In this document: positions 15,698 to 57,790 of the stretch, piece after piece | Numbering within the stretch: position 1 is the first letter of the stretch | Layout of the letters: each line of letters opens with the position of its first letter | Assembly: GCA_963920705.1 (NCBI GenBank) | Contig: OY987233.1 | Span: 4,392,001 to 4,456,000, forward strand | Direction: 5' to 3' | DNA from: Odiellus spinosus | Lineage: Eukaryota; Arthropoda; Arachnida; Opiliones; Phalangiidae | DNA length: 64,000 bases | Position numbers and translations under genes: made by a program | Notes under the pieces: model-generated | The model's input: the letters and a program-made list of their open reading frames with translations, nothing else | Databases searched by the model: none | Told to the model about the DNA's origin: nothing

Positions 15698-15795
15698 TGA
15701 TTAAGACTAATTTGAAAAGTCGATTAAGCTTAATTTCAAACGTCGATTAAGCCTAAATTCAAACGCCGCTTAAGCCTAATTTCAAACGACAACTA
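15698..15795 (-). repeat. Inverted outlier of the 23-bp satellite, 4 units
   Basis: Four degenerate units of GATTAAGCCTAATTTCAAACG, the reverse complement of the unit filling 16748-18487. They abut G copy 2. Confidence 0.85.
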
Positions 15796-16747
15796 TTATA
15801 AGTATCTTATGCGATTTTTAACAAAGAAATAACTGAAACAAAGAGACATTTTAATATAACTAATTAATATCTAATTTGTTAACCATTTTTAAGACATTTT
15901 TGACGTATAATTCCTAGTTAGTTCCTTCTTTTCCCGCACGTTTTTGGCCGTTGGAGGATGCTTATGAACTCTATGGTTTTTTATTCATCTTTATCTATTA
16001 AGAAAATAGTTCATGGTTAATAATTCTAGGTTACAACTAGAAATATGTTAATCGTGTTACTTGGCCTTAACTAAGAGCATCCCTTCATTGAGAGGAGCTA
16101 TATGGGTTTATTTCTATTCTAAAGAACTCTTTCATTCTTCGCTTCTCTCTTCTATTGTAAGAAAAAAAGGGTTCTTTCGAAGACGCTATCCAATTCTTTC
16201 TTTTCTTTTTCTTCTCGCTACTTTTTACCACAAGGATTCCTTTGGGTGTTTCTTAGCATTCCCGGGAGTTGTTTTTTTTTTTTATTTTATTTTTTTGATC
16301 ACGAAGTTGAAGCCCTTTTCCCGTTTACTCTTAAAATCCTCCCTGGTATAATGAATAACCCAACAACCCTACAGTTCTTGGAAAATTTCCACAGAGGGGA
16401 TTGAGTAGAAGAGATCTAGCTAGCTATTAACGGAAGAAATTGAACTAAATTAGAACGATCAAAGAAAATTAGCGTTCGAAGATGAAGATGTTATTAAATC
16501 ATTAAATTAAGAATGCTTGCTTCCGGTAGATACAAGTTTAGAAACTAAGGGAGATATTTTTTGCTTCATAATTAGCTAGGGCTTATAGATATTCAGAAAT
16601 CTTCATTTTTGGCCAAATCCAAAAAGAAACTATTAAACTTAAATTTAGACAATTAAGTTAAAACTAGGTAAATTACACTTCAAATAAAAATTTACAACAA
16701 TTAATAAAATAACTTATAATAATTAACTATTATGTTGAAATAAGTAT
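15796..16747. other. Unique spacer between inverted satellite tracts
   Basis: AT-rich. It contains a 96-codon hydrophobic chance ORF (16061-16351) ending after a T-rich stretch. No gene recognised. Confidence 0.45.
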
Positions 16748-18487
16748 TAATCGACGTTTGAAATTAGGATTTATCAGCGTTTGAAATTAGGATTTATCAT
16801 TGTTTGAAATTAGAATAATCGACATTCGAAATTAGGCTTAAATCGACGTTCGAAATTAGGCTTAATCAGCGTTTGAAATTAGGCTTAATCGACCTTTGAA
16901 ATTAGGCTTAATCAGCGTTTGAAATTAGGCTTAATCAGAGTTTGAAATTAGGCTTAATCAGAGTTTGAAATTAGGCTTAATCAGCGTTTGAAATTAGGCT
17001 TAATCAGCGTTTGAAATTAGGCTTAATCAGCGTTTGAAATTAGGCTTAATCATCGTTTGAAATTAGGCTTAATCAGCGTTTGAAATTAGGCTTAATCAGC
17101 GTTTGAAATTAGGCTTAATCAGCGTTTGAAATTAGGCTTAATCAGCGTTTGAAATTAGGCTTAATCAGCGTTTGAAATTAGGCTTAATCAGCGTTTGAAA
17201 TTAGGCTTAATCAGCGTTTGAAATTAGGCTTAATCAGCGTTTGAAATTAGGCTTAATCAGCGTTTGAAATTAGGCTTAATCAGCGTTTGAAATTAGGATT
17301 AATCAGCGTTTGAAATTAGGATTAATCAGCGTTTGAAATTAGGATTAATCAGCGTTTGAAATTAGGATTAATCAGCGTTTGAAATTAGGATTAATCAGCG
17401 TTTGAAATTAGGATTAATCAGCGTTTGAAATTAGGATTAATCAGCGTTTGAAATTAGGATTAATCAGCGTTTGAAATTAGGATTAATCAGCGTTTGAAAT
17501 TAGGATTAATCAGCGTTTGAAATTAGGATTAATCAGCGTTTGAAATTAGGATTAATCAGCGTTTGAAATTAGGATTAATCAGCGTTTGAAATTAGGATTA
17601 ATCAGCGTTTGAAATTAGGATTAATCAGCGTTTGAAATTAGGATTAATCAGCGTTTGAAATTAGGATTAATCAGCGTTTGAAATTAGGATTAATCAGCGT
17701 TTGAAATTAGGATTAATCAGCGTTTGAAATTAGGATTAATCAGCGTTTGAAATTAGGATTAATCAGCGTTTGAAATTAGGATTAATCAGCGTTTGAAATT
17801 AGGATTAATCAGCGTTTGAAATTAGGATTAATCAGCGTTTGAAATTAGGATTAATCAGCGTTTGAAATTAGGATTAATCAGCGTTTGAAATTAGGATTAA
17901 TCAGCGTTTGAAATTAGGATTAATCAGCGTTTGAAATTAGGATTAATCAGCGTTTGAAATTAGGATTAATCAGCGTTTGAAATTAGGATTAATCAGCGTT
18001 TGAAATTAGGATTAATCAGCGTTTGAAATTAGGATTAATCAGCGTTTGAAATTAGGATTAATCAGCGTTTGAAATTAGGATTAATCAGCGTTTGAAATTA
18101 GGATTAATCAGCGTTTGAAATTAGAATAATCGACCTTTGAAATTAGGATTAATCAGCGTTTGAAATTAGAATAATCGACCTTTGAAATTACGCTTAAATC
18201 GACGTTCGAAATTAGGCTTAAATCGACGTTCGAAATTAGGCTTAAATCGACGTTCGAAATTAGGCTTAAATCGACGTTCGAAATTAGGCTTAAATCGACG
18301 TTTGAAATTAGGCTTAAATCGACGTTTGAAATTAGGCTTAAATCGACGTTTGAAATTAGGCTTAAATCGACCTTTGAAATTAGGCTTAAATCCACCTTTG
18401 AAATTATTCTTAATCGCCCTTTGAAATTAGGCTTAATCAGCGTTTGAAATTAGGCTTAATAGACGTTTGAAATTAGGCTTAATCGAC
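16748..18487 (+). repeat. 23/24-bp satellite, about 75 units
   Basis: Unit built on GCGTTTGAAATTAGG followed by CTTAATCA or ATTAATCA. Three zones are visible. The left zone (to about 17290) has AGGCTTAATC. A homogeneous core (about 17290-18115) has AGGATTAATC. The right zone (about 18183-18400) has 24-bp units AGGCTTAAATCGAC. The 24-bp zone is the only part with a period divisible by 3, which explains the 80-codon frames on both strands there; they are not genes. Confidence 0.95.
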
Positions 18488-36654: not shown

Positions 36655-37262
36655 TGTCATGAACTCCAAATGGAGAGCTCGTTAAAATATGATTCATAAT
36701 ATATATACATATGTCTTGGAAAAAAATTATGACAGTCAAAAAATCTATCACTATATTCCATAAAAGTAAACAACGCCCCGTAGATTAAAACTATCAGCAA
36801 AGGTCCAGGTAAATGTACGGGCAGATTCTGATTCGAGACACTCTAGCGGCTGTAGTCGCCTTGTAAATAGAGAACGGAGGAAGCGACACTCTGCGGAGAA
36901 ATTCCGGAGTGGGGGGGGGGAGGATAACATCGTCAAGCGCGGCCTGCCTAAATTCCGTCCCCTCTCTCGACTCAAAATATTGAGGAAGAGTCCAAATCAT
37001 TCGAGCCAGACAGGGGTGATGATTTTTTGGCGTATTTTAAGTGATGGGTATGACGTAAAACTGGACCTTTGCTGATAGTATAGAGCTTTAAGGGCGTTGT
37101 TTACTTTTTTGGAATAAAGTGCGACAGTAAAAATACACATTTTATAATCGCCATTATATAAAATTTTAAAATAAAAATTCCCTGCAATACTACGTCATCA
37201 AATACGGTCACGTGGCTACTGTAGAGCCCACAGTTAATTTCGCGCGTTCTGGCACGTGATAA
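36655..37262 (-). repeat. Family C copy (reverse), split by D copy 8
   Basis: The left part is TCATGAACTCCAAATGGAG to TTATGACAGT. The right part resumes CGACAGTAAAAATACAC and ends CGTTCTGGCACGTGATAAGG. GACAGT is present on both sides of the D insertion, marking a target duplication of at least 6 bp. Confidence 0.85.
36737..37123 (+). mobile_element. MITE family D, copy 8, nested in C
   Basis: Left terminal repeat AAATCTATCACTATATTCC, core and right terminal repeat GGCGTTGTTTACTTTTTTGG. The outermost right bases are lost. A G-run (GGGGGGGGGG) has grown near 36911. The minus-strand ORFs here are shadows. Confidence 0.88.
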
Positions 37263-37939: not shown

Positions 37940-40900
37940 CTATGATAAATTTATATATTGCAGATACGTCTGATAAATTTATATACTGCAGATACGTCTG
38001 ATAAATTTATATACTGCAGACACGTCTGATAAATTTATACACTGCAGACACGTCTGATAAATTTATACACTGCAGACACGTCTGATAAATTTATACACTG
38101 CAGACACGTCTGATAAATTTATACACTGCAGACACGTCTGATAAATTTATACATTGCAGACACGTCTGATAAATTTATACATTGCAGACACGTCTGATAA
38201 ATTTATACATTGCAGACACGTCTGATAAATTTATACATTGCAGACACGTCTGATAAATTTATACATTGCAGACACGTCTGATAAATTTATACATTGCAGA
38301 CACGTCTGATAAATTTATACATTGCAGACACGTCTGATAAATTTATACATTGCAGACACGTCTGATAAATTTATACATTGCAGACACGTCTGATAAATTT
38401 ATACATTGCAGACACGTCTGATAAATTTATACATTGCAGACACGTCTGATAAATTTATACATTGCAGACACGTCTGATAAATTTATACATTGCAGACACG
38501 TCTGATAAATTTATACATTGCAGACACGTCTGATAAATTTATACATTGCAGACACGTCTGATAAATTTATACATTGCAGACACGTCTGATAAATTTATAC
38601 ATTGCAGACACGTCTGATAAATTTATACATTGCAGACACGTCTGATAAATTTATACATTGCAGACACGTCTGATAAATTTATACATTGCAGACACGTCTG
38701 ATAAATTTATACATTGCAGACACGTCTGATAAATTTATACATTGCAGACACGTCTGATAAATTTATACATTGCAGACACGTCTGATAAATTTATACATTG
38801 CAGACACGTCTGATAAATTTATACATTGCAGACACGTCTGATAAATTTATACATTGCAGACACGTCTGATAAATTTATACATTGCAGACACGTCTGATAA
38901 ATTTATACATTGCAGACACGTCTGATAAATTTATACATTGCAGACACGTCTGATAAATTTATACATTGCAGACACGTCTGATAAATTTATACATTGCAGA
39001 CACGTCTGATAAATTTATACATTGCAGACACGTCTGATAAATTTATACATTGCAGACACGTCTGATAAATTTATACATTGCAGACACGTCTGATAAATTT
39101 ATACATTGCAGACACGTCTGATAAATTTATACATTGCAGACACGTCTGATAAATTTATACATTGCAGACACGTCTGATAAATTTATACATTGCAGACACG
39201 TCTGATAAATTTATACATTGCAGACACGTCTGATAAATTTATACATTGCAGACACGTCTGATAAATTTATACATTGCAGACACGTCTGATAAATTTATAC
39301 ATTGCAGACACGTCTGATAAATTTATACATTGCAGACACGTCTGATAAATTTATACATTGCAGACACGTCTGATAAATTTATACATTGCAGACACGTCTG
39401 ATAAATTTATACATTGCAGACACGTCTGATAAATTTATACATTGCAGACACGTCTGATAAATTTATACATTGCAGACACGTCTGATAAATTTATACATTG
39501 CAGACACGTCTGATAAATTTATACATTGCAGACACGTCTGATAAATTTATACATTGCAGACACGTCTGATAAATTTATACATTGCAGACACGTCTGATAA
39601 ATTTATACATTGCAGACACGTCTGATAAATTTATACATTGCAGACACGTCTGATAAATTTATACATTGCAGACACGTCTGATAAATTTATACATTGCAGA
39701 CACGTCTGATAAATTTATACATTGCAGACACGTCTGATAAATTTATACATTGCAGACACGTCTGATAAATTTATACATTGCAGACACGTCTGATAAATTT
39801 ATACATTGCAGACACGTCTGATAAATTTATACATTGCAGACACGTCTGATAAATTTATACATTGCAGACACGTCTGATAAATTTATACATTGCAGACACG
39901 TCTGATAAATTTATACATTGCAGACACGTCTGATAAATTTATACATTGCAGACACGTCTGATAAATTTATACATTGCAGACACGTCTGATAAATTTATAC
40001 ATTGCAGACACGTCTGATAAATTTATACATTGCAGACACGTCTGATAAATTTATACATTGCAGACACGTCTGATAAATTTATACATTGCAGACACGTCTG
40101 ATAAATTTATACATTGCAGACACGTCTGATAAATTTATACATTGCAGACACGTCTGATAAATTTATACATTGCAGACACGTCTGATAAATTTATACATTG
40201 CAGACACGTCTGATAAATTTATACATTGCAGACACGTCTGATAAATTTATACATTGCAGACACGTCTGATAAATTTATACATTGCAGACACGTCTGATAA
40301 ATTTATACATTGCAGACACGTCTGATAAATTTATACATTGCAGACACGTCTGATAAATTTATACATTGCAGACACGTCTGATAAATTTATACATTGCAGA
40401 CACGTCTGATAAATTTATACATTGCAGACACGTCTGATAAATTTATACATTGCAGACACGTCTGATAAATTTATACATTGCAGACACGTCTGATAAATTT
40501 ATACATTGCAGACACGTCTGATAAATTTATACATTGCAGACACGTCTGATAAATTTATACATTGCAGACACGTCTGATAAATTTATACATTGCAGACACG
40601 TCTGATAAATTTATACATTGCAGACACGTCTGATAAATTTATACATTGCAGACACGTCTGATAAATTTATACATTGCAGACACGTCTGATAAATTTATAC
40701 ATTGCAGACACGTCTGATAAATTTATACATTGCAGACACGTCTGATAAATTTATACATTGCAGACACGTCTGATAAATTTATACATTGCAGACACGTCTG
40801 ATAAATTTATACATTGCAGACACGTCTGATAAATTTATACATTGCAGACACGTCTGATAAATTTATACATTGCAGACACGTCTGATAAATTTATACATTG

Positions 40901-43655
40901 CAGACACGTCTGATAAATTTATACATTGCAGACACGTCTGATAAATTTATACATTGCAGACACGTCTGATAAATTTATACATTGCAGACACGTCTGATAA
41001 ATTTATACATTGCAGACACGTCTGATAAATTTATACATTGCAGACACGTCTGATAAATTTATACATTGCAGACACGTCTGATAAATTTATACATTGCAGA
41101 CACGTCTGATAAATTTATACATTGCAGACACGTCTGATAAATTTATACATTGCAGACACGTCTGATAAATTTATACATTGCAGACACGTCTGATAAATTT
41201 ATACATTGCAGACACGTCTGATAAATTTATACATTGCAGACACGTCTGATAAATTTATACATTGCAGACACGTCTGATAAATTTATACATTGCAGACACG
41301 TCTGATAAATTTATACATTGCAGACACGTCTGATAAATTTATACATTGCAGACACGTCTGATAAATTTATACATTGCAGACACGTCTGATAAATTTATAC
41401 ATTGCAGACACGTCTGATAAATTTATACATTGCAGACACGTCTGATAAATTTATACATTGCAGACACGTCTGATAAATTTATACATTGCAGACACGTCTG
41501 ATAAATTTATACATTGCAGACACGTCTGATAAATTTATACATTGCAGACACGTCTGATAAATTTATACATTGCAGACACGTCTGATAAATTTATACATTG
41601 CAGACACGTCTGATAAATTTATACATTGCAGACACGTCTGATAAATTTATACATTGCAGACACGTCTGATAAATTTATACATTGCAGACACGTCTGATAA
41701 ATTTATACATTGCAGACACGTCTGATAAATTTATACATTGCAGACACGTCTGATAAATTTATACATTGCAGACACGTCTGATAAATTTATACATTGCAGA
41801 CACGTCTGATAAATTTATACATTGCAGACACGTCTGATAAATTTATACATTGCAGACACGTCTGATAAATTTATACATTGCAGACACGTCTGATAAATTT
41901 ATACATTGCAGACACGTCTGATAAATTTATACATTGCAGACACGTCTGATAAATTTATACATTGCAGACACGTCTGATAAATTTATACATTGCAGACACG
42001 TCTGATAAATTTATACATTGCAGACACGTCTGATAAATTTATACATTGCAGACACGTCTGATAAATTTATACATTGCAGACACGTCTGATAAATTTATAC
42101 ATTGCAGACACGTCTGATAAATTTATACATTGCAGACACGTCTGATAAATTTATACATTGCAGACACGTCTGATAAATTTATACATTGCAGACACGTCTG
42201 ATAAATTTATACATTGCAGACACGTCTGATAAATTTATACATTGCAGACACGTCTGATAAATTTATACACTGCAGACACGTCTGATAAATTTATACACTG
42301 CAGACACGTCTGATAAATTTATACACTGCAGACACGTCTGATAAATTTATACACTGCAGACACGTCTGATAAATTTATACACTGCAGACACGTCTGATAA
42401 ATTTATACATTGCAGACACGTCTGATAAATTTATACATTGCAGACACGTCTGATAAATTTATACATTGCAGACACGTCTGATAAATTTATACATTGCAGA
42501 CACGTCTGATAAATTTATACATTGCAGACACGTCTGATAAATTTATACATTGCAGACACGTCTGATAAATTTATACATTGCAGACACGTCTGATAAATTT
42601 ATACATTGCAGACACGTCTGATAAATTTATACATTGCAGACACGTCTGATAAATTTATACATTGCAGACACGTCTGATAAATTTATACATTGCAGACACG
42701 TCTGATAAATTTATACATTGCAGACACGTCTGATAAATTTATACATTGCAGACACGTCTGATAAATTTATACATTGCAGACACGTCTGATAAATTTATAC
42801 ATTGCAGACACGTCTGATAAATTTATACATTGCAGACACGTCTGATAAATTTATACATTGCAGACACGTCTGATAAATTTATATATTGCAGACACGTCTG
42901 ATAAATTTATATATTGCAGACACGTCTGATAAATTTATACATTGCAGACACGTCTGATAAATTTATACATTGCAGACACGTCTGATAAATTTATACATTG
43001 CAGACACGTCTGATAAATTTATACATTGCAGACACGTCTGATAAATTTATACATTGCAGACACGTCTGATAAATTTATACATTGCAGACACGTCTGATAA
43101 ATTTATACATTGCAGACACGTCTGATAAATTTATACATTGCAGACACGTCTGATAAATTTATACATTGCAGACACGTCTGATAAATTTATACATTGCAGA
43201 CACGTCTGATAAATTTATACATTGCAGACACGTCTGATAAATTTATACATTGCAGACACGTCTGATAAATTTATACATTGCAGACACGTCTGATAAATTT
43301 ATACATTGCAGACACGTCTGATAAATTTATACATTGCAGACACGTCTGATAAATTTATACATTGCAGACACGTCTGATAAATTTATATATTGCAGACACG
43401 TCTGATAAATTTATATATTGCAGACACGTCTGATAAATTTATATATTGCAGACACGTCTGATAAATTTATATATTGCAGACACGTCTGATAAATTTATAT
43501 ATTGCAGACACGTCTGATAAATTTATATATTGCAGACACGTCTGATAAATTTATATATTGCAGATACGTCTGATAAATTTATATATTGCAGATACGTCTG
43601 ATAAATTTATATATTGCAGATACGTCTGATAAATTTATATATTGCAGATACGTCT
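37940..43655 (+). repeat. 28-bp satellite, about 204 units
   Basis: Unit reads TCTGATAAATTTATACATTG followed by CAGACACG. From about 38150 to 42265 (roughly 147 units) I see no variant at all. The left edge holds a stepwise series of variants; the right part holds short blocks of ACACTG (5 units, 42267-42385) and ATATTG units and ends with ATATTG/GATACG units identical to the first left unit. Every frame meets stops (TGATAAATT), so there is no long ORF. No transposon interrupts it. Confidence 0.98.
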
Positions 43656-44010
43656 CAATTAATTTTTAAATATTTCAGACATCTCAATTAATTTTTAAAT
43701 ATTTCAGACATCTCAATTAATTTTTAAATATTTCAGACATCTCAATTAATTTTTAAATATTTCAGACATCTCAATTAATTTTTAAATATTTCAGACATCT
43801 CAATTAATTTTTAAATATTTCAGACATCTCAATTAATTTTTAAATATTTCAGACATCTCAATTAATTTTTAAATATTTCAGACATCTCAATTAATTTTTA
43901 AATATTTCAGACATCTCAAATAATTTTAAATATTTCAGACATCTCAAATAATTTTTAAATATTTCAGACATCTCAAATAATTTTTAAATATTTCAAACAT
44001 ATCAACTCAT
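43656..44010 (+). repeat. 29-bp satellite, about 12 units
   Basis: Unit CTCAATTAATTTTTAAATAT then TTCAGACAT. It takes over from the 28-bp array inside the shared motif CAGA(T/C)A..TCT. The last three units (CAAATAATTTT) are diverged. Confidence 0.95.
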
Positions 44011-44600
44011 GTCTAGATATTTCAGAGATTTTTTAGATTAATTGGGATTTAGTTATTAACTGCGATTAATTAGATTATTAAGTTATATGTTGTAACTATT
44101 TCTCCGCAGGTTAAAATGGAAGGTAGAAATTTTTTGTACAATTGTTCGTGCCTACCTTCATTAAATAAATGTATATAAAACCTTAAATTACTTATGGTTG
44201 GTGATGAGTTTCCTAGGTACACTACGTATTTTACGTAAAAAACACATTGACAGTCCAGTATTGTTAAAGGAAGTTTCTTTCATATTTTCATAATACTTAA
44301 AAAATGTAGTGCGCGTTTTCCGGAGAAGGTGGGTTCGAGGAATAGTAAAGAAGAAGGAGGAGACGATAGTCGGAGGCCGTAAATGTCTCAATGTTTTATT
44401 AATGAGCTATAAAAGCCAGTAATACGACAAAATCATAAATTAAGAGATCCAAAGAATAACGTTAAAAAAAAAAAAAAAAAAAAAACAACGTGTGTATGTT
44501 GGTTTTAAAATTAAAGACGTAGCTCTTAGCGTGCGACGAAAATAAAAAGAAAATCATTAACGCGGAGAAATTTCAGTTATAATGAATCGTTTCAAGTTAA
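44011..44600. other. Spacer between satellites
   Basis: Unique sequence with an A22 run (44464-44485). The 67-codon minus ORF (44188-44391) is unrecognised. Confidence 0.5.
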
Positions 44601-44778
44601 AGACTTTTCAGTATTAATGATTTATAGATAATTTTAGACTTTTCAGTTTTAAATTATTTCTAGATAAATTTGGACTTTTCACTCTCGTTATTTATATATA
44701 AATTTAAACTTTTAATTATTAAGTTATTTCTAGAAAAATTTAGACTTTTTAGTATTAAGTTATTTCTAGATAAATTTA
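44601..44778 (+). repeat. 35/36-bp short array, 5 units
   Basis: Starts of GACTTTT (or AACTTTT) at 44602, 44637, 44673, 44708 and 44743 give a period of 35-36 bp, with TTATTTCTAGATAAATTT between. It grades into the 33-bp units via the shared AGATAAATTTA. Confidence 0.8.
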
Positions 44779-47700
44779 TTCTTCGTGGACAAATTTGTTA
44801 TTTTAAATTTATTCTTCGTGGACAAATTTGTTATTTTAAATTTATTCTTCGTGGACAAATTTGTTATTTTAAATTTATTCTTCGTGGACAAATTTGTTAT
44901 TTTAAATTTATTCTTCGTGGACAAATTTGTTATTTTAAATTTATTCTTCGTGGACAAATTTGTTATTTTAATCTGTTCTTCATGAAATATTTGTTTTTTT
45001 AAATCTATTCTTCATGAAAAATTTGTTTTTTAAATCTATTCTTCATGAAAAATTTGTTTTTTAAATCTATTCTTCATGAAAAATTTGTTTTTTAAATCTA
45101 TTCTTCATGAAAATTTTTTTTTTTAAATCTATTCTTCATGAAATATTTGTTTTTTAAATCTATTCTTCATGAAATATTTGTTTTTTAAATCTATTCTTCA
45201 TGAAAAATTTGTTTTTTAAATCTATTCTTCATGAAAAATTTGTTTTTTAAATCTATTCTTCATGAAAAATTTGTTTTTTAAATCTATTCTTCATGAAAAA
45301 TTTGTTTTTTAAATCTATTCTTCATGAAAAATGTTTTTTTTAAATCTATTCTTCATGAAATATTTGTTTTTTAAATCTATTCTTCATGAAAAATTTGTTT
45401 TTTAAATCTATTCTTCATGAAAAATTTGTTTTTTAAATCTATTCTTCATGAAAAATTTGTTTTTTAAATCTATTCTTCATGAAAAATTTGTTTTTTAAAT
45501 CTATTCTTCATGAAAAATTTGTTTTTTAAATCTATTCTTCATGAAAAATTTGTTTTTTAAATCTATTCTTCATGAAAAATTTGTTTTTTAAATCTATTCT
45601 TCATGAAAAATTTGTTTTTTAAATCTATTCTTCATGAAAAATTTGTTTTTTAAATCTATTCTTCATGAAAAATTTGTTTTTTAAATCTATTCTTCATGAA
45701 AAATTTGTTTTTTAAATCTATTCTTCATGAAAAATTTGTTATTTTAAATTTATTCTTCGTGGAAAAATTTGTTATTTTAAATTTATTCTTCGTGGACAAA
45801 TTTGTTATTTTAAATTTATTCTTCGTGGACAAATTTGTTATTTTAAATTTATTCTTCGTGGACAAATTTGTTATTTTAAATTTATTCTTCGTGGACAAAT
45901 TTGTTATTTTAAATTTATTCTTCATGGACAAATTTGTTATTTTAAATTTATTCTTCGTGGACAAATTTGTTATTTTAAATTTATTCTTCGTGGACAAATT
46001 TGTTATTTTAAATTTATTCTTCGTGGACAAATTTGTTATTTTAAATTTATTCTTCGTGGACAAATTTGTTATTTTAATCTATTCTTCATGAAAAATTTGT
46101 TTTTTAAATCTATTCTTCATGAAAAATTTGTTTTTTAAATCTATTCTTCATGAAAAATTTGTTTTTTTAAATCTATTCTTCATGAAAAATTTGTTTTTTA
46201 AATCTATTCTTCATGAAAAATTTGTTTTTTAAATCTATTCTTCATGAAAAATTTGTTTTTTAAATCTATTCTTCATGAAAAATTTGTTTTTTAAATCTAT
46301 TCTTCATGAAAAATGTTTTTTTTAAATCTATTCTTCATGAAATATTTGTTTTTTAAATCTATTCTTCATGAAAAATTTGTTTTTTAAATCTATTCTTCAT
46401 GAAAAATTTGTTTTTTAAATCTATTCTTCATGAAAAATTTGTTTTTTAAATCTATTCTTCATGAAAAATTTGTTTTTTAAATCTATTCTTCATGAAAAAT
46501 TTGTTTTTTAAATCTATTCTTCATGAAAAATTTGTTTTTTAAATCTATTCTTCATGAAAAATTTGTTTTTTAAATCTATTCTTCATGAAAAATTTGTTTT
46601 TTAAATCTATTCTTCATGAAAAATTTGTTTTTTAAATCTATTCTTCATGAAAAATTTGTTTTTTAAATCTATTCTTCATGAAAAATTTGTTTTTTAAATC
46701 TATTCTTCATGAAAAATTTGTTTTTTTAAATCTATTCTTCATGAAAAATTTGTTTTTTTAAATCTATTCTTCATGAAAAATTTGTTTTTTAAATCTATTC
46801 TTCATGAAAAATTTGTTTTTTAAATCTATTCTTCATGAAAAATTTGTTTTTTAAATCTATTCTTCATGAAAAATTTGTTTTTTAAATCTATTCTTCATGA
46901 AAAATTTGTTTTTTAAATCTATTCTTCATGAAAAATTTGTTTTTTAAATCTATTCTTCATGAAAAATTTGTTTTTTAAATCTATTCTTCATGAAAAATTT
47001 GTTTTTTAAATCTATTCTTCATGAAAAATTTGTTATTTTAAATTTATTCTTCGTGGACAAATTTGTTATTTTAAATTTATTCTTCGTGGACAAATTTGTT
47101 ATTTTAAATTTATTCTTCGTGGACAAATTTGTTATTTTAAATTTATTCTTCGTGGACAAATTTGTTATTTTAAATTTATTCTTCGTGGACAAATTTGTTA
47201 TTTTAAATTTATTCTTCGTGGACAAATTTGTTATTTTAAATTTATTCTTCGTGGACAAATTTGTTATTTTAATCTATTCTTCATGAAAAATTTGTTTTTT
47301 AAATCTATTCTTCATGAAAAATTTGTTTTTTAAATCTATTCTTCATGAAAAATTTGTTTTTTTAAATCTATTCTTCATGAAAAATTTGTTTTTTAAATCT
47401 ATTCTTCATGAAAAATTTGTTTTTTAAATCTATTCTTCATGAAAAATTTGTTTTTTAAATCTATTCTTCATGAAAAATTTGTTTTTTAAATCTATTCTTC
47501 ATGAAAAATTTGTTTTTTAAATCTATTCTTCATGAAAAATTTGTTTTTTAAATCTATTCTTCATGAAAAATTTGTTTTTTAAATCTATTCTTCATGAAAA
47601 ATTTGTTTTTTAAATCTATTCTTCATGAAAAATTTGTTTTTTAAATCTATTCTTCATGAAAAATTTGTTTTTTAAATCTATTCTTCATGAAAAATTTGTT

Positions 47701-50700
47701 TTTTAAATCTATTCTTCATGAAAAATTTGTTTTTTAAATCTATTCTTCATGAAAAATTTGTTTTTTAAATCTATTCTTCATGAAAAATTTGTTTTTTAAA
47801 TCTATTCTTCATGAAAAATTTGTTTTTTAAATCTATTCTTCATGAAAAAATTTTTTTTAAATCTATTCTTCATGAAAAATTTGTTTTTTAAATCTATTCT
47901 TCATGAAAAATTTGTTTTTTAAATCTATTCTTCATGAAAAATTTGTTTTTTAAATCTATTCTTCATGAAAAATTTGTTTTTTAAATCTATTCTTCATGAA
48001 AAATTTGTTTTTTAAATCTATTCTTCATGAAAAATTTGTTTTTTAAATCTATTCTTCATGAAAAATTTGTTTTTTAAATCTATTCTTCATGAAAAATTTG
48101 TTTTTTAAATCTATTCTTCATGAAAAATTTGTTTTTTAAATCTATTCTTCATGAAAAATTTGTTTTTTAAATCTATTCTTCATGAAAAATTTGTTTTTTA
48201 AATCTATTCTTCATGAAAAATTTGTTTTTTAAATCTATTCTTCATGAAAAATTTGTTTTTTAAATCTATTCTTCATGAAAAATTTGTTTTTTAAATCTAT
48301 TCTTCATGAAAAATATGTTTTTTTAAATCTATTCTTCATGAAATTTTTTTTTTAAATCTATTCTTCATGAAAAATTTGTTTTTTAAATCTATTCTTCATG
48401 AAAAATTTGTTTTTTAAATCTATTCTTCATGAAAAATTTGTTTTTTAAATCTATTCTTCATGAAAAATTTGTTTTTTAAATCTATTCTTCATGAAAATTT
48501 TTTTTTAAATCTATTCTTCATGAAAAATTTGTTATTTTAAATTTATTCTTCGTGGAAAAATTTGTTATTTTAAATTTATTCTTCGTGGACAAATTTGTTA
48601 TTTTAAATTTATTCTTCGTGGACAAATTTGTTATTTTAAATTTATTCTTCGTGGACAAATTTGTTATTTTAAATTTATTCTTCGTGGACAAATTTGTTAT
48701 TTTAAATTTATTCTTCGTGGACAAATTTGTTATTTTAAATTTATTCTTCGTGGAAAAATTTGTTATTTTAAATTTATTCTTCGTGGACAAATTTGTTATT
48801 TTAAATTTATTCTTCGTGGACAAATTTGTTATTTTAAATTTATTCTTCGTGGACAAATTTGTTATTTTAAATTTATTCTTCGTGGACAAATTTGTTATTT
48901 TAATCTATTCTTCATGAAAAATTTGTTTTTTAAATCTATTCTTCATGAAAAATTTGTTTTTTTAAATCTATTCTTCATGAAAAATTTGTTTTTTAAATCT
49001 ATTCTTCATGAAAAATTTGTTTTTTAAATCTATTCTTCATGAAAAATTTGTTTTTTAAATCTATTCTTCATGAAAAATTTGTTTTTTAAATCTATTCTTC
49101 ATGAAAAATTTGTTTTTTAAATCTATTCTTCATGAAAAATTTGTTTTTTAAATCTATTCTTCATGAAAAATTTGTTTTTTAAATCTATTCTTCATGAAAA
49201 ATTTGTTTTTTAAATCTATTCTTCATGAAAAATTTGTTTTTTAAATCTATTCTTCATGAAAAATTTGTTTTTTAAATCTATTCTTCATGAAAATTTTTTT
49301 TTTTAAATCTATTCTTCATGAAAAATTTGTTTTTTAAATCTATTCTTCATGAAAAATTTGTTTTTTAAATCTATTCTTCATGAAAAATTTGTTTTTTAAA
49401 TCTATTCTTCATGAAAAATTTGTTTTTTAAATCTATTCTTCATGAAAAATTTGTTTTTTTAAATCTATTCTTCATGAAAAATTTGTTTTTTTAAATCTAT
49501 TCTTCATGAAAAATTTGTTTTTTAAATCTATTCTTCATGAAAAATTTGTTTTTTAAATCTATTCTTCATGAAAAATTTGTTTTTTAAATCTATTCTTCAT
49601 GAAAAATTTGTTTTTTAAATCTATTCTTCATGAAAAATTTGTTTTTTAAATCTATTCTTCATGAAAAATTTGTTTTTTAAATCTATTCTTCATGAAAAAT
49701 TTGTTATTTTAAATTTATTCTTCGTGGAAAAATTTGTTATTTTAAATTTATTCTTCGTGGACAAATTTGTTATTTTAAATTTATTCTTCGTGGACAAATT
49801 TGTTATTTTAAATTTATTCTTCGTGGACAAATTTGTTATTTTAAATTTATTCTTCGTGGACAAATTTGTTATTTTAAATTTATTCTTCATGGACAAATTT
49901 GTTATTTTAAATTTATTCTTCGTGGACAAATTTGTTATTTTAAATTTATTCTTCGTGGACAAATTTGTTATTTTAAATTTATTCTTCGTGGACAAATTTG
50001 TTATTTTAAATTTATTCTTCGTGGACAAATTTGTTATTTTAAATTTATTCTTCGTGGACAAATTTGTTATTTTAAATTTATTCTTCGTGGACAAATTTGT
50101 TATTTTAAATTTATTCTTCGTGGACAAATTTGTTATTTTAAATTTATTCTTCGTGGACAAATTTGTTATTTTAAATTTATTCTTCATGGACAAATTTGTT
50201 ATTTTAAATTTATTCTTCGTGGACAAATTTGTTATTTTAAATTTATTCTTCGTGGACAAATTTGTTATTTTAAATTTATTCTTCGTGGACAAATTTGTTA
50301 TTTTAAATTTATTCTTCGTGGACAAATTTGTTATTTTAAATTTATTCTTCGTGGACAAATTTGTTATTTTAAATTTATTCTTCGTGGACAAATTTGTTAT
50401 TTTAAATTTATTCTTCGTGGACAAATTTGTTATTTTAAATTTATTCTTCATGGACAAATTTGTTATTTTAAATTTATTCTTCGTGGACAAATTTGTTATT
50501 TTAAATTTATTCTTCGTGGACAAATTTGTTATTTTAAATTTATTCTTCGTGGACAAATTTGTTATTTTAAATTTATTCTTCGTGGACAAATTTGTTATTT
50601 TAAATTTATTCTTCGTGGACAAATTTGTTATTTTAAATTTATTCTTCGTGGACAAATTTGTTATTTTAAATTTATTCTTCGTGGACAAATTTGTTATTTT

Positions 50701-51835
50701 AATCTATTCTTCATGAAAAATTTGTTTTTTAAATCTATTCTTCATGAAAAATTTGTTTTTTAAATCTATTCTTCATGAAAAATTTGTTTTTTTAAATCTA
50801 TTCTTCATGAAAAATTTGTTTTTTAAATCTATTCTTCATGAAAAATTTGTTTTTTAAATCTATTCTTCATGAAAAATTTGTTTTTTAAATCTATTCTTCA
50901 TGAAAAATTTGTTTTTTTAATCTATTCTTCATGAAAAATTTGTTTTTTAAATCTATTCTTCATGAAAAATTTGTTTTTTAAATCTATTCTTCATGAAAAA
51001 TTTGTTTTTTAAATCTATTCTTCATGAAAAATTTGTTTTTTAAATCTATTCTTCATGAAAAATTTGTTTTTTAAATCTATTCTTCATGAAAAATTTGTTT
51101 TTTAAATCTATTCTTCATGAAAAAATTTTTTTTAAATCTATTCTTCATGAAAAATTTGTTTTTTAAATCTATTCTTCATGAAAAATTTGTTTTTTAAATC
51201 TATTCTTCATGAAAAATTTGTTTTTTAAATCTATTCTTCATGAAAAATTTGTTTTTTAAATCTATTCTTCATGAAAAATTTGTTTTTTAAATCTATTCTT
51301 CATGAAAAATTTGTTTTTTAAATCTATTCTTCATGAAAAATTTGTTTTTTAAATCTATTCTTCATGAAAAATTCGTTTTTTAAATCTATTCTTCATGAAA
51401 AATTCGTTTTTTAAATCTATTCTTCATGAAAAATTCGTTTTTTAAATCTATTCTTCATGAAAAATTCGTTTTTTAAATCTATTCTTCATGAAAAATTTGT
51501 TATTTTAAATCTATTCTTCATGAAAAATTTGTTATTTTAAATCTATTCTTCATGAAAAATTTATTTTAAAACTATTCTTCATTAAAAATTTATTTTAAAA
51601 CTATTCATTAAAAATTTATTTTAAAACTATTCTTCATGAAAAATTTGTTATTTTAAATCTATTCTTCATGGAAAATTTTAAATCTATTCTTCATGGGAAA
51701 TTTTATTTTAAATCTATTTTTCATGGAAAATTTTATTTTTAATCTATTTTTCATGGAAAATTTTATTTTAAATCTATTTTTCATGGAAAATTTATTTTAA
51801 ATCTATTCTTCATGGAAAATTTGTTATTAGACATC
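44779..51835 (+). repeat. 7-kb compound satellite: alternating 33-bp and 31-bp blocks
   Basis: 33-bp units (TTCTTCGTGGACAAATTTG then TTATTTTAAATTTA) occupy 44779-44972, 45721-46078, 47015-47273, 48514-48904 and 49686-50703. 31-bp units (TTCTTCATGAAAAATTTG then TTTTTTAAATCTA) fill the spaces and 50704-51500, decaying to 51835. Junctions are reused: 33-bp blocks end TTATTTTAATCTATTC every time, and three of five begin with a unit carrying GTGGAAAAA. Block sizes are about 6, 11, 8, 12 and 31 units. The frames of 110-351 codons on both strands exist because 33 is divisible by 3 and the unit lacks stops; they are not genes. Confidence 0.97.
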
Positions 51836-55689: not shown

Positions 55690-57790
55690 GAAAAGCAATA
55701 GAAAAGTGTGCAAAGCAATAGAAAAGTGTGCAAAGCAATAGAAAAGTGTGCAAAGCAAGAGAAAAGTGTGCAAAGCAATAGAAAAGTGTGCAAAGCAATA
55801 GAAAAGTGTGCAAAGCAATAGAAAAGTGTGCAAAGCAATAGAAAAGTGTGCAAAGCAATAGAAAAGTGTGCAAAGCAATAGAAAAGTGTGCAAAGCAATA
55901 GAAAAGTGTGCAAAGCAATAGAAAAGTGTGCAAAGCAATAGAAAAGTGTGCAAAGCAATAGAAAAGTGTGCAAAGCAATAGAAAAGTGTGCAAAGCAATA
56001 GAAAAGTGTGCAAAGCAATAGAAAAGTGTGCAAAGCAATAGAAAAGTGTGCAAAGCAATAGAAAAGTGTGGAAAGCAATAGAAAAGTGTGGAAAGCAATA
56101 GAAAAGTGTGGAAAGCAATAGAAAAGTGTGGAAAGCAATAGAAAAGTGTGGAAAGCAATAGAAAAGTGTGGAAAGCAATAGAAAAGTGTGGAAAGCAATA
56201 GAAAAGTGTGGAAAGCAATAGTAAAGTGTGGAAAGCAATAGTAAAGTGTGGAAAGCAATAGTAAAGTGTGGAAAGCAATAGTAAAGTGTGGAAAGCAATA
56301 GTAAAGTGTGGAAAGCAATAGAAAAGTGTGGAAAGCAATAGAAAAGTGTGGAAAGCAATAGAAAAGTGTGGAAAGCAATAGAAAAGTGTGGAAAGCAATA
56401 GAAAAGTGTGGAAAGCAATAGAAAAGTGTGGAAAGCAATAGAAAAGTGTGGAAAGCAATAGAAAAGTGTGGAAAGCAATAGTAAAGTGTGGAAAGCAATA
56501 GAAAAGTGTGGAAAGCAATAGTAAAGTGTGGAAAGCAATAGTAAAGTGTGGAAAGCAATAGTAAAGTGTGGAAAGCAATAGTAAAGTGTGGAAAGCAATA
56601 GTAAAGTGTGGAAAGCAATAGTAAAGTGTGGAAAGCAATAGTAAAGTGTGGAAAGCAATAGTAAAGTGTGGAAAGCAATAGTAAAGTGTGGAAAGCAATA
56701 GTAAAGTGTGGAAAGCAATAGTAAAGTGTGGAAAGCAATAGTAAAGTGTGGAAAGCAATAGAAAAGTGTGGAAAGCAATAGAAAAGTGTGGAAAGCAATA
56801 GAAAAGTGTGGAAAGCAATAGAAAAGTGTGGAAAGCAATAGAAAAGTGTGGAAAGCAATAGAAAAGTGTGGAAAGCAATAGAAAAGTGTGGAAAGCAATA
56901 GAAAAGTGTGGAAAGCAATAGAAAAGTGTGGAAAGCAATAGAAAAGTGTGGAAAGCAATAGAAAAGTGTGGAAAGCAATAGTAAAGTGTGGAAAGCAATA
57001 GTAAAGTGTGGAAAGCAATAGAAAAGTGTGGAAAGCAATAGAAAAGTGTGGAAAGCAATAGAAAAGTGTGGAAAGCAATAGAAAAGTGTGGAAAGCAATA
57101 GAAAAGTGTGGAAAGCAATAGAAAAGTGTGGAAACCAATAGAAAAGTGTGGAAAGCAATAGAAAAGTGTGGAAAGCAATAGAAAAGTGTGGAAAGCAATA
57201 GAAAAGTGTGGAAAGCAATAGAAAAGTGTGGAAAGCAATAGAAAAGTGTGGAAAGCAATAGAAAAGTGTGGAAAGCAATAGTAAAGTGTGGAAAGCAATA
57301 GTAAAGTGTGGAAAGCAATAGTAAAGTGTGGAAAGCAATAGTAAAGTGTGGAAAGCAATAGTAAAGTGTGGAAAGCAATAGAAAAGTGTGGAAAGCAATA
57401 GAAAAGTGTGGAAAGCAATAGAAAAGTGTGGAAAGCAATAGAAAAGTGTGGAAAGCAATAGAAAAGTGTGGAAACCAATAGAAAAGTGTGGAAAGCAATA
57501 GAAAAGTGTGGAAAGCAATAGAAAAGTGTGGAAAGCAATAGAAAAGTGTGGAAAGCAATAGAAAAGTGTGGAAAGCAATAGAAAAGTGTGGAAAGCAATA
57601 GAAAAGTGTGGAAAGCAATAGAAAAGTGTGGAAAGCAATAGAAAAGTGTGGAAAGCAATAGAAAAGTGTGGAAAGCAATAGAAAAGTGTGGAAAGCAATA
57701 GAAAAGTGTGGAAAGCAATAGAAAAGTGTGGAAAGCAATAGAAAAGTGTGGAAAGCAATAGAAAAGTGTGGAAAGTAATAGAAAAGTCTG
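55690..57790. repeat. 20-bp satellite, about 104 units
   Basis: Unit GAAAAGTGTGGAAAGCAATA. Variants occur in blocks: GTGCAAAGC in the leftmost 19 or so units (to about 56060), and GTAAAG instead of GAAAAG in blocks near 56220-56320, 56480-56760, 56985-57005 and 57280-57365. The minus strand of the unit has no stop in any phase, so all three minus frames stay open for 687-732 codons with a 20-residue period (FYCFPHFSIAFHTFLLLSTL). The longest frame's extra 5' codons (57868 down to about 57780) come from unique sequence. I judge these as artefacts. Confidence 0.96.

Follow-up and report, generated by a model that had tools for sequence, protein, structure and literature searches.

Can the order of variant units along a tandem array be read as the history of how one unit form gave way to another? 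This question is raised by a 28-bp array in a stretch of 64,000 nucleotides (the window below) from the arachnid Odiellus spinosus, which corresponds to positions 4392001-4456000 of contig OY987233.1 (C11 below) in the assembly GCA_963920705.1. A preliminary description of the locus saw in its edges a preserved record of the way in which an ancestral unit became the amplified one. The order of units is real and far from chance, and the pattern is unusually clean, yet it belongs to a minisatellite of an ordinary, known kind, and the edge order is not readable as unit ancestry without alleles or an outgroup. In our opinion, this is probably a young, single-locus, non-coding minisatellite with blocks formed by ordinary turnover within the array; its edges would then be what turnover has not swept out, and not a step-by-step pedigree.

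The array occupies 5.7 kb and consists of 204 head-to-tail units with 0 insertions or deletions (indels); Tandem Repeats Finder (TRF) reported a copy number of 204.0, with 99% matches and 0% indels. Numbered along the core unit TGATAAATTTATACATTGCAGACACGTC, the variable sites in all 204 units are just three, 14, 16 and 23, and at each of them the alternatives are C and T. Written in the order (14,16,23), the six haplotypes are A (TTT), B (TCT), C (TCC), D (CCC), K (CTC, the core form) and E (TTC). They follow one another in 11 runs, A1 B1 C1 D4 K147 D5 K17 E2 K16 E6 A4, and all borders between runs (10/10) are one-base steps. The core form accounts for 180 units in three runs, and its longest run (4116 bp) contains zero differences.

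The left series had been described as ATATTG/GATACG, ATACTG/GATACG and ATACTG/GACACG once each, ACACTG/GACACG four times and then ACATTG/GACACG, with one base changed at each step, and the right end as a return to the form of the first unit; the haplotypes determined unit by unit agree with all of this. The core of about 147 identical units proved to include a run of exactly that length, but it is interrupted on the right by the D5 and E2 islands, which had been overlooked together with the E6 run. The right-edge path (E6, A4) is not a mirror of the left one, and E is absent from the left series.

The 28-mers were extracted in order and joined in a unit network, as had been proposed, and their blocks were found to be non-random. 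In 10,000 shuffles of the units, the mean number of runs was 45 and the minimum 35, against 11 observed, and when the blocks were ordered at random without equal neighbours, all ten borders were one-step in 50 of 200,000 orders. At the same time, runs are to be expected in a tandem array from any process that duplicates units locally, and random shuffling is therefore not the appropriate null.

The same network is a closed ring instead of a one-way series. In the cube defined by the three sites, the haplotypes follow the ring A-B-C-D-K-E-A, CTT and CCT being absent, and all four combinations of bases are present at the site pairs 14/16 and 16/23 (four-gamete violations). Looking for such a ring is an easy way to reveal recombination or repeated mutation. 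To account for a six-member ring by mutation only, a tree would have to place five or more substitutions on the three sites, and the probability that five uniform hits fall on no more than 3 of 28 sites is 0.029, before identical base changes are required. On the left, site 16 is reversed (T to C to T), and the right path A-E-K gets to K in two steps. Because the ring is closed, the left path A-B-C-D-K and the right path A-E-K are not both diaries of mutation unless changes were repeated. With recombination or conversion, three substitutions would suffice (A/E at site 23, E/K at site 14 and K/D at site 16), and under this scheme C and B would be mosaics formed at an A/D junction. The reading of the edges as literal history is only partly supported: the homogeneous interior flanked by minority forms, the identity of the two end forms and the one-base steps all stand, but a literal series from the ancestral to the amplified unit is not supported.

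According to the explanation that we favour, rare substitutions, approximately three, would have arisen in a precursor array that was still short. Sister chromatids would then have exchanged DNA out of register over short distances, by unequal exchange or by synthesis-dependent strand annealing with patches below one unit; small groups of units would have been duplicated in this way and the border moved independently for each variant site, and a sharp left A/D junction would thereby have turned into the staircase A-B-C-D. As K grew in the interior, minority forms would have been driven to the edges, and the islands (D4 K147 / D5 K17 E2 / K16 E6 / A4) would go back to a D-K-E stretch that underwent two short tandem duplications with some loss at the joints. 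The borders would be one-step because exchange partners are close and the blocks joined are ring neighbours. With just three sites variable among 204 units, it may still be possible to count single events here. The coordinates of the runs are given in Table 1.

Table 1. Positions of the 28-bp array, its runs of unit haplotypes and the adjoining 29-bp array in the window
Feature	Positions	Content
Whole array	37943..43654	204 units, 28 bp, six haplotypes
Unit 1	37943..37970	Haplotype A (T14 T16 T23)
Unit 2	37971..37998	Haplotype B (T14 C16 T23), single occurrence
Unit 3	37999..38026	Haplotype C (T14 C16 C23), single occurrence
Units 4-7	38027..38138	Haplotype D (C14 C16 C23), four units
Units 8-154	38139..42254	Core haplotype K (C14 T16 C23), 147 identical units
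Units 155-159	42255..42394	Haplotype D island, five units
Units 160-176	42395..42870	Haplotype K, 17 units
Units 177-178	42871..42926	Haplotype E (T14 T16 C23) island, two units
Units 179-194	42927..43374	Haplotype K, 16 units
Units 195-200	43375..43542	Haplotype E, six units, right-edge intermediate
Units 201-204	43543..43654	Haplotype A, form identical to unit 1
29-bp array	43653..44026	13 units, nine identical; abuts the 28-bp array on the right, in phase at the junction

What neutral turnover can produce was illustrated by forward models with duplication, deletion and substitution, in which simulations were accepted if they had three segregating sites, 8-14 runs and a matched array size; the parameter ranges were our choice, and the outcomes are illustrations, not fitted probabilities. 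The one-phase set (25,001 simulations) comprised equilibrium or growth, each with sub-unit exchange or with whole units, and the two-phase set, in four variants, started from a short old array that then grew. In the one-phase set, 26/3124 simulations were accepted for equilibrium with sub-unit exchange, 4/1043 for equilibrium with whole units, 379/15,624 for growth with sub-unit exchange and 134/5210 for growth with whole units. All borders were one-step in 19/26, 3/4, 340/379 and 119/134 of these, respectively, and a run of at least 140 units appeared in 2/26, 1/4, 45/379 and 18/134; six haplotypes were obtained in 3/379 simulations of growth with sub-unit exchange and in 0 of the other three models.

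In the two-phase set, 167/30,601 simulations were accepted with exchange, 80/30,600 with whole units, 160/30,600 with exchange and conversion and 258/30,600 with three hot sites. In the same order, all borders were one-step in 88/167, 29/80, 102/160 and 121/258, the longest run reached at least 140 units in 58/167, 21/80, 55/160 and 49/258, and the same non-modal form stood at both ends in 5/167, 2/80, 3/160 and 12/258. At least six haplotypes were found in 5/167 simulations with exchange, 0/80 with whole units (no sub-unit exchange) and 4/160 with exchange and conversion. Depending on the model, one-step borders throughout characterized 36-90% of the accepted neutral simulations. Blocks and one-step borders are ordinary in neutral models and a long core is not unusual, while six haplotypes from three sites required sub-unit exchange, conversion or hot sites in these simulations and were rare even then.

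Neighbouring arrays provided a second comparison. The control set included 30 arrays with at least 12 copies from the 256-kb region C11:4300000-4556000, the focal array being counted. TRF rows with fewer than 12 copies or a period below 9 and rows overlapped over more than half by a better-scoring row were left out, end units were dropped if their length was below 0.8 of the period, and the counts were tallied by us from the resulting table. Runs were fewer than in each of 300 shuffles in 15/30 arrays, the edges were farther than the middle from the modal unit in 21/30, and at least half of the borders were one-step in 13/30. The longest uniform run was the focal one of 147 units, followed by one of 36.

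A sibling case is the 23-bp array at C11:4326309-4328390, approximately 102 kb away, with 90 units, 9 haplotypes, 20 runs and one-step borders throughout (19/19). The four-gamete test, which covered four arrays and left out forms with at least 7 differences, detected violations in it at 12/20 and 12/21, which are transversion sites. Such violations were absent in the 20-bp array at window position 55692, in which 17/18 borders were one-step in a gapped parse, and in the 24-bp array at C11:4305108.

Several results weigh against the explanation by ordinary turnover. Only 2/30 nearby arrays, the focal one (10/10) and its 23-bp sibling, have one-step borders throughout, and the focal array is alone among the 30 in having the same non-modal form at both ends, a feature seen in 0/543 accepted one-phase simulations. 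At least six haplotypes were combined with the same non-modal ends in 0/167 two-phase simulations with exchange, 0/80 with whole units, 1/160 with exchange and conversion and 1/258 with hot sites, and no two-phase model added one-step borders throughout to these two properties, so the exact combination observed is rare under every model tried. At least six haplotypes came more often from the hot-site model (25/258) than from that with conversion (4/160). Finally, sites 14 and 16 are only 2 bp apart, yet their borders on the left are two units apart, and such a split would seldom be expected from a conversion patch several bases long.

Within the turnover explanation, it is possible, although we put it forward tentatively, that the left staircase is a sub-unit footprint of very short conversion patches at the edge, with its own border for each site, so that even sites 2 bp apart would be separable. 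If this is true, the edge order of a minisatellite records conversion tracts and not mutational ancestry.

The most likely of the rival explanations, although an improbable one in our judgement, is the literal record, according to which ancestral A changed into B, C, D and K base by base on the left, and K was amplified with the old form kept at both edges. The left steps are indeed single-base and in order, A stands at both ends, which is seen for a non-modal form in no other of the 30 nearby arrays, and the offset of two units between sites 2 bp apart suits separate mutations; older layers around an amplified core are also known in primate alpha satellite, as the relevant passages of PMC2729386 describe. 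At the same time, this history requires the T-C-T return at site 16 together with a repeated change at site 14 or 23, with the low probability given above for five hits on so few sites, and one-step borders arise in the simulations without it. The choice of A as the ancestor had been made from its position alone, and the adjoining 29-bp array weakly points elsewhere.

Decay in this 29-bp array is confined to the right end, and on the left its units continue the phase of the 28-bp array. In the phase of the junction, a likeness between the two units as good as the actual one was obtained in 36/20,000 mononucleotide and 51/20,000 dinucleotide shuffles and in 8/20,000 random stretches from the first 37 kb of the window. 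With free rotation, the likeness is weak: shuffles were as good in 9/400 cases on the plus strand and 5/200 on the minus strand for the A unit and in 5/400 and 5/200, respectively, for the K unit. The two arrays are probably related, and their homology is called no more than probable because it is strong in the junction-fixed phase alone. In four scoring schemes, E was the best match of the 29-bp unit, A, C and K were tied one base lower, and B and D were below them. Among the co-optimal alignments inspected, site 16 was T in all for both A and K, site 14 was T in all for A and in 23/32 for K, and site 23 fell into a gap in 46/69 for A. The 29-bp relative thus weakly suggests E rather than A as the root and does not support A as the ancestor. 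As to the age of outer and inner forms, the best-fitting E sits both at the right edge and inside, with a margin of one base and with a relative that is only probable. A degenerate unit to the left of the array found no support (841/5000 shuffles were as good), and the A unit showed no likeness to the neighbouring 31-, 33- and 32-bp units. Its likeness to a 36-bp unit was weak (8/400), that to the 23-bp unit on the minus strand gave 3/200, and neither was used.

Still less likely is recurrent C/T mutation at three hypermutable sites, each mutant unit being spread by local duplication. All three variable sites are C/T, and the corresponding model yields at least six haplotypes most often, as given above; none of the sites, however, has a CpG context, and between the K runs the changes never occur in a lone unit, the islands there being five and two units long. 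C/T hotspots are also unlikely as a general cause because the violations in the 23-bp sibling array sit at transversion sites. An assembly artefact, with a core that owes its uniformity to filling or has an incorrect length, is very unlikely, with only the letters A, C, G and T and no gap in the window, a contig of 23.9 Mb in an assembly of 443 Mb in 286 contigs, D5 and E2 islands that filling would hardly create, and an array of 5.7 kb that is shorter than ordinary long reads.

Blocks of variant units are well known from the human Y-linked minisatellite MSY1, for which the relevant sections of PMC2599865 give such examples as (1)15 (3)42 (4)20 and mutants with block lengths changed by 1-3 units, border switches and type changes of single units. 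The authors ascribe these mutants, in the same sections, to sister-chromatid conversion by synthesis-dependent strand annealing with tracts of no more than 25 bp (PMC2599865). In its blocks, with six haplotypes in 11 runs, the focal array resembles MSY1 as described there. The data on MSY1, a haploid locus, come from single molecules, whereas the focal array is known from one assembled allele; it has 204 units against 77 in the cited MSY1 donor, and its core is nearly uniform. In primate alpha satellite, according to the passages drawn on here, the youngest uniform repeats lie inside, and older variants are pushed to both sides in a partly symmetrical manner (PMC2729386, PMC8997354). A uniform interior with variant forms outside is common to both, but alpha satellite, in these accounts, consists of large arrays at the centromeres of many chromosomes and has higher-order repeats, and the focal array covers 5.7 kb at one locus with single-base variants. 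In the unequal-exchange model of Smith (1976), as outlined in PMC8997354, out-of-register duplications and deletions between sisters homogenise arrays and make higher-order repeats. It is a model and not a locus, and in comparison with that outline the sub-unit patches are an addition made here, needed for the staircase. By analogy, the focal array appears to fit the MSY1 and alpha-satellite pictures at a small scale. It is a clean example of how edge order in a tandem array can resemble an evolutionary pedigree without being one.

Minisatellites are tandem arrays of kilobase scale with units of roughly 10-100 bp. The focal array has such a unit length, is arranged head-to-tail, lies at a single locus and is non-coding. 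Matches to its unit at no more than 3 mismatches in the whole assembly number 204, which is the array's own count, and none is on the other strand; the array is thus a single-locus minisatellite, and a genome-wide satellite family is ruled out. A coding repeat is ruled out, as each of the six frames contains stops within the three-unit period. Centromeric satellites are very large and occupy many chromosomes, unlike this single 5.7-kb locus. In the window, no RNA families (Rfam, gathering scores) or tRNAs (ARAGORN, bacterial code) were found, and no protein families were detected at expectation values up to 0.1 in 10 open reading frames chosen from 81 listed.

With a substitution rate near 3e-9 per base per generation, the 147-unit run is roughly estimated, under a star of units, to be younger than about 240,000 generations, an estimate blurred by turnover and by the choice of the longest run. 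Hairpin strength was rejected as the cause of the amplification of K over A, since K has no consistent advantage. On the plus strand, the hairpin energies of K and A were -3.0 and -1.7 kcal/mol for one unit with its border, -5.9 and -6.4 kcal/mol for two units, and -16.7 and -15.1 kcal/mol for four units. Two units folded better than shuffles for A (z -2.71) and less so for K (z -1.70). For four K units, just 7% of the arrays built from shuffled units folded as well, so hairpins may help turnover in general.

The surroundings are rich in repeats, and approximately 20% of the 256-kb region lies in tandem arrays of period at least 9. At window positions 44771-51825, there is a 31/33-bp array of 224 units and 27 forms, in which mixed-form cassettes of several units recur when inspected by eye, unlike the simple blocks of the focal array. 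A dispersed repeat of about 380 bp lies beside the focal array (window approximately 36739-37121). It gave at least 60 BLAST pieces in the 256-kb region, the self match counted, and, among the matches listed, 24 non-self pieces 77.8-87.7% identical on both strands; Rfam and tRNA searches of the window gave no match. A similar 23-24-bp unit, judged by eye to be GATTAAGCCTAATTTCAAACGTC-like on either strand, occurs at window positions 15699-15788 and 16735-18484 and at C11:4361477 and C11:4390128, and the likeness of these arrays within 50 kb suggests the local spread of one tandem family.

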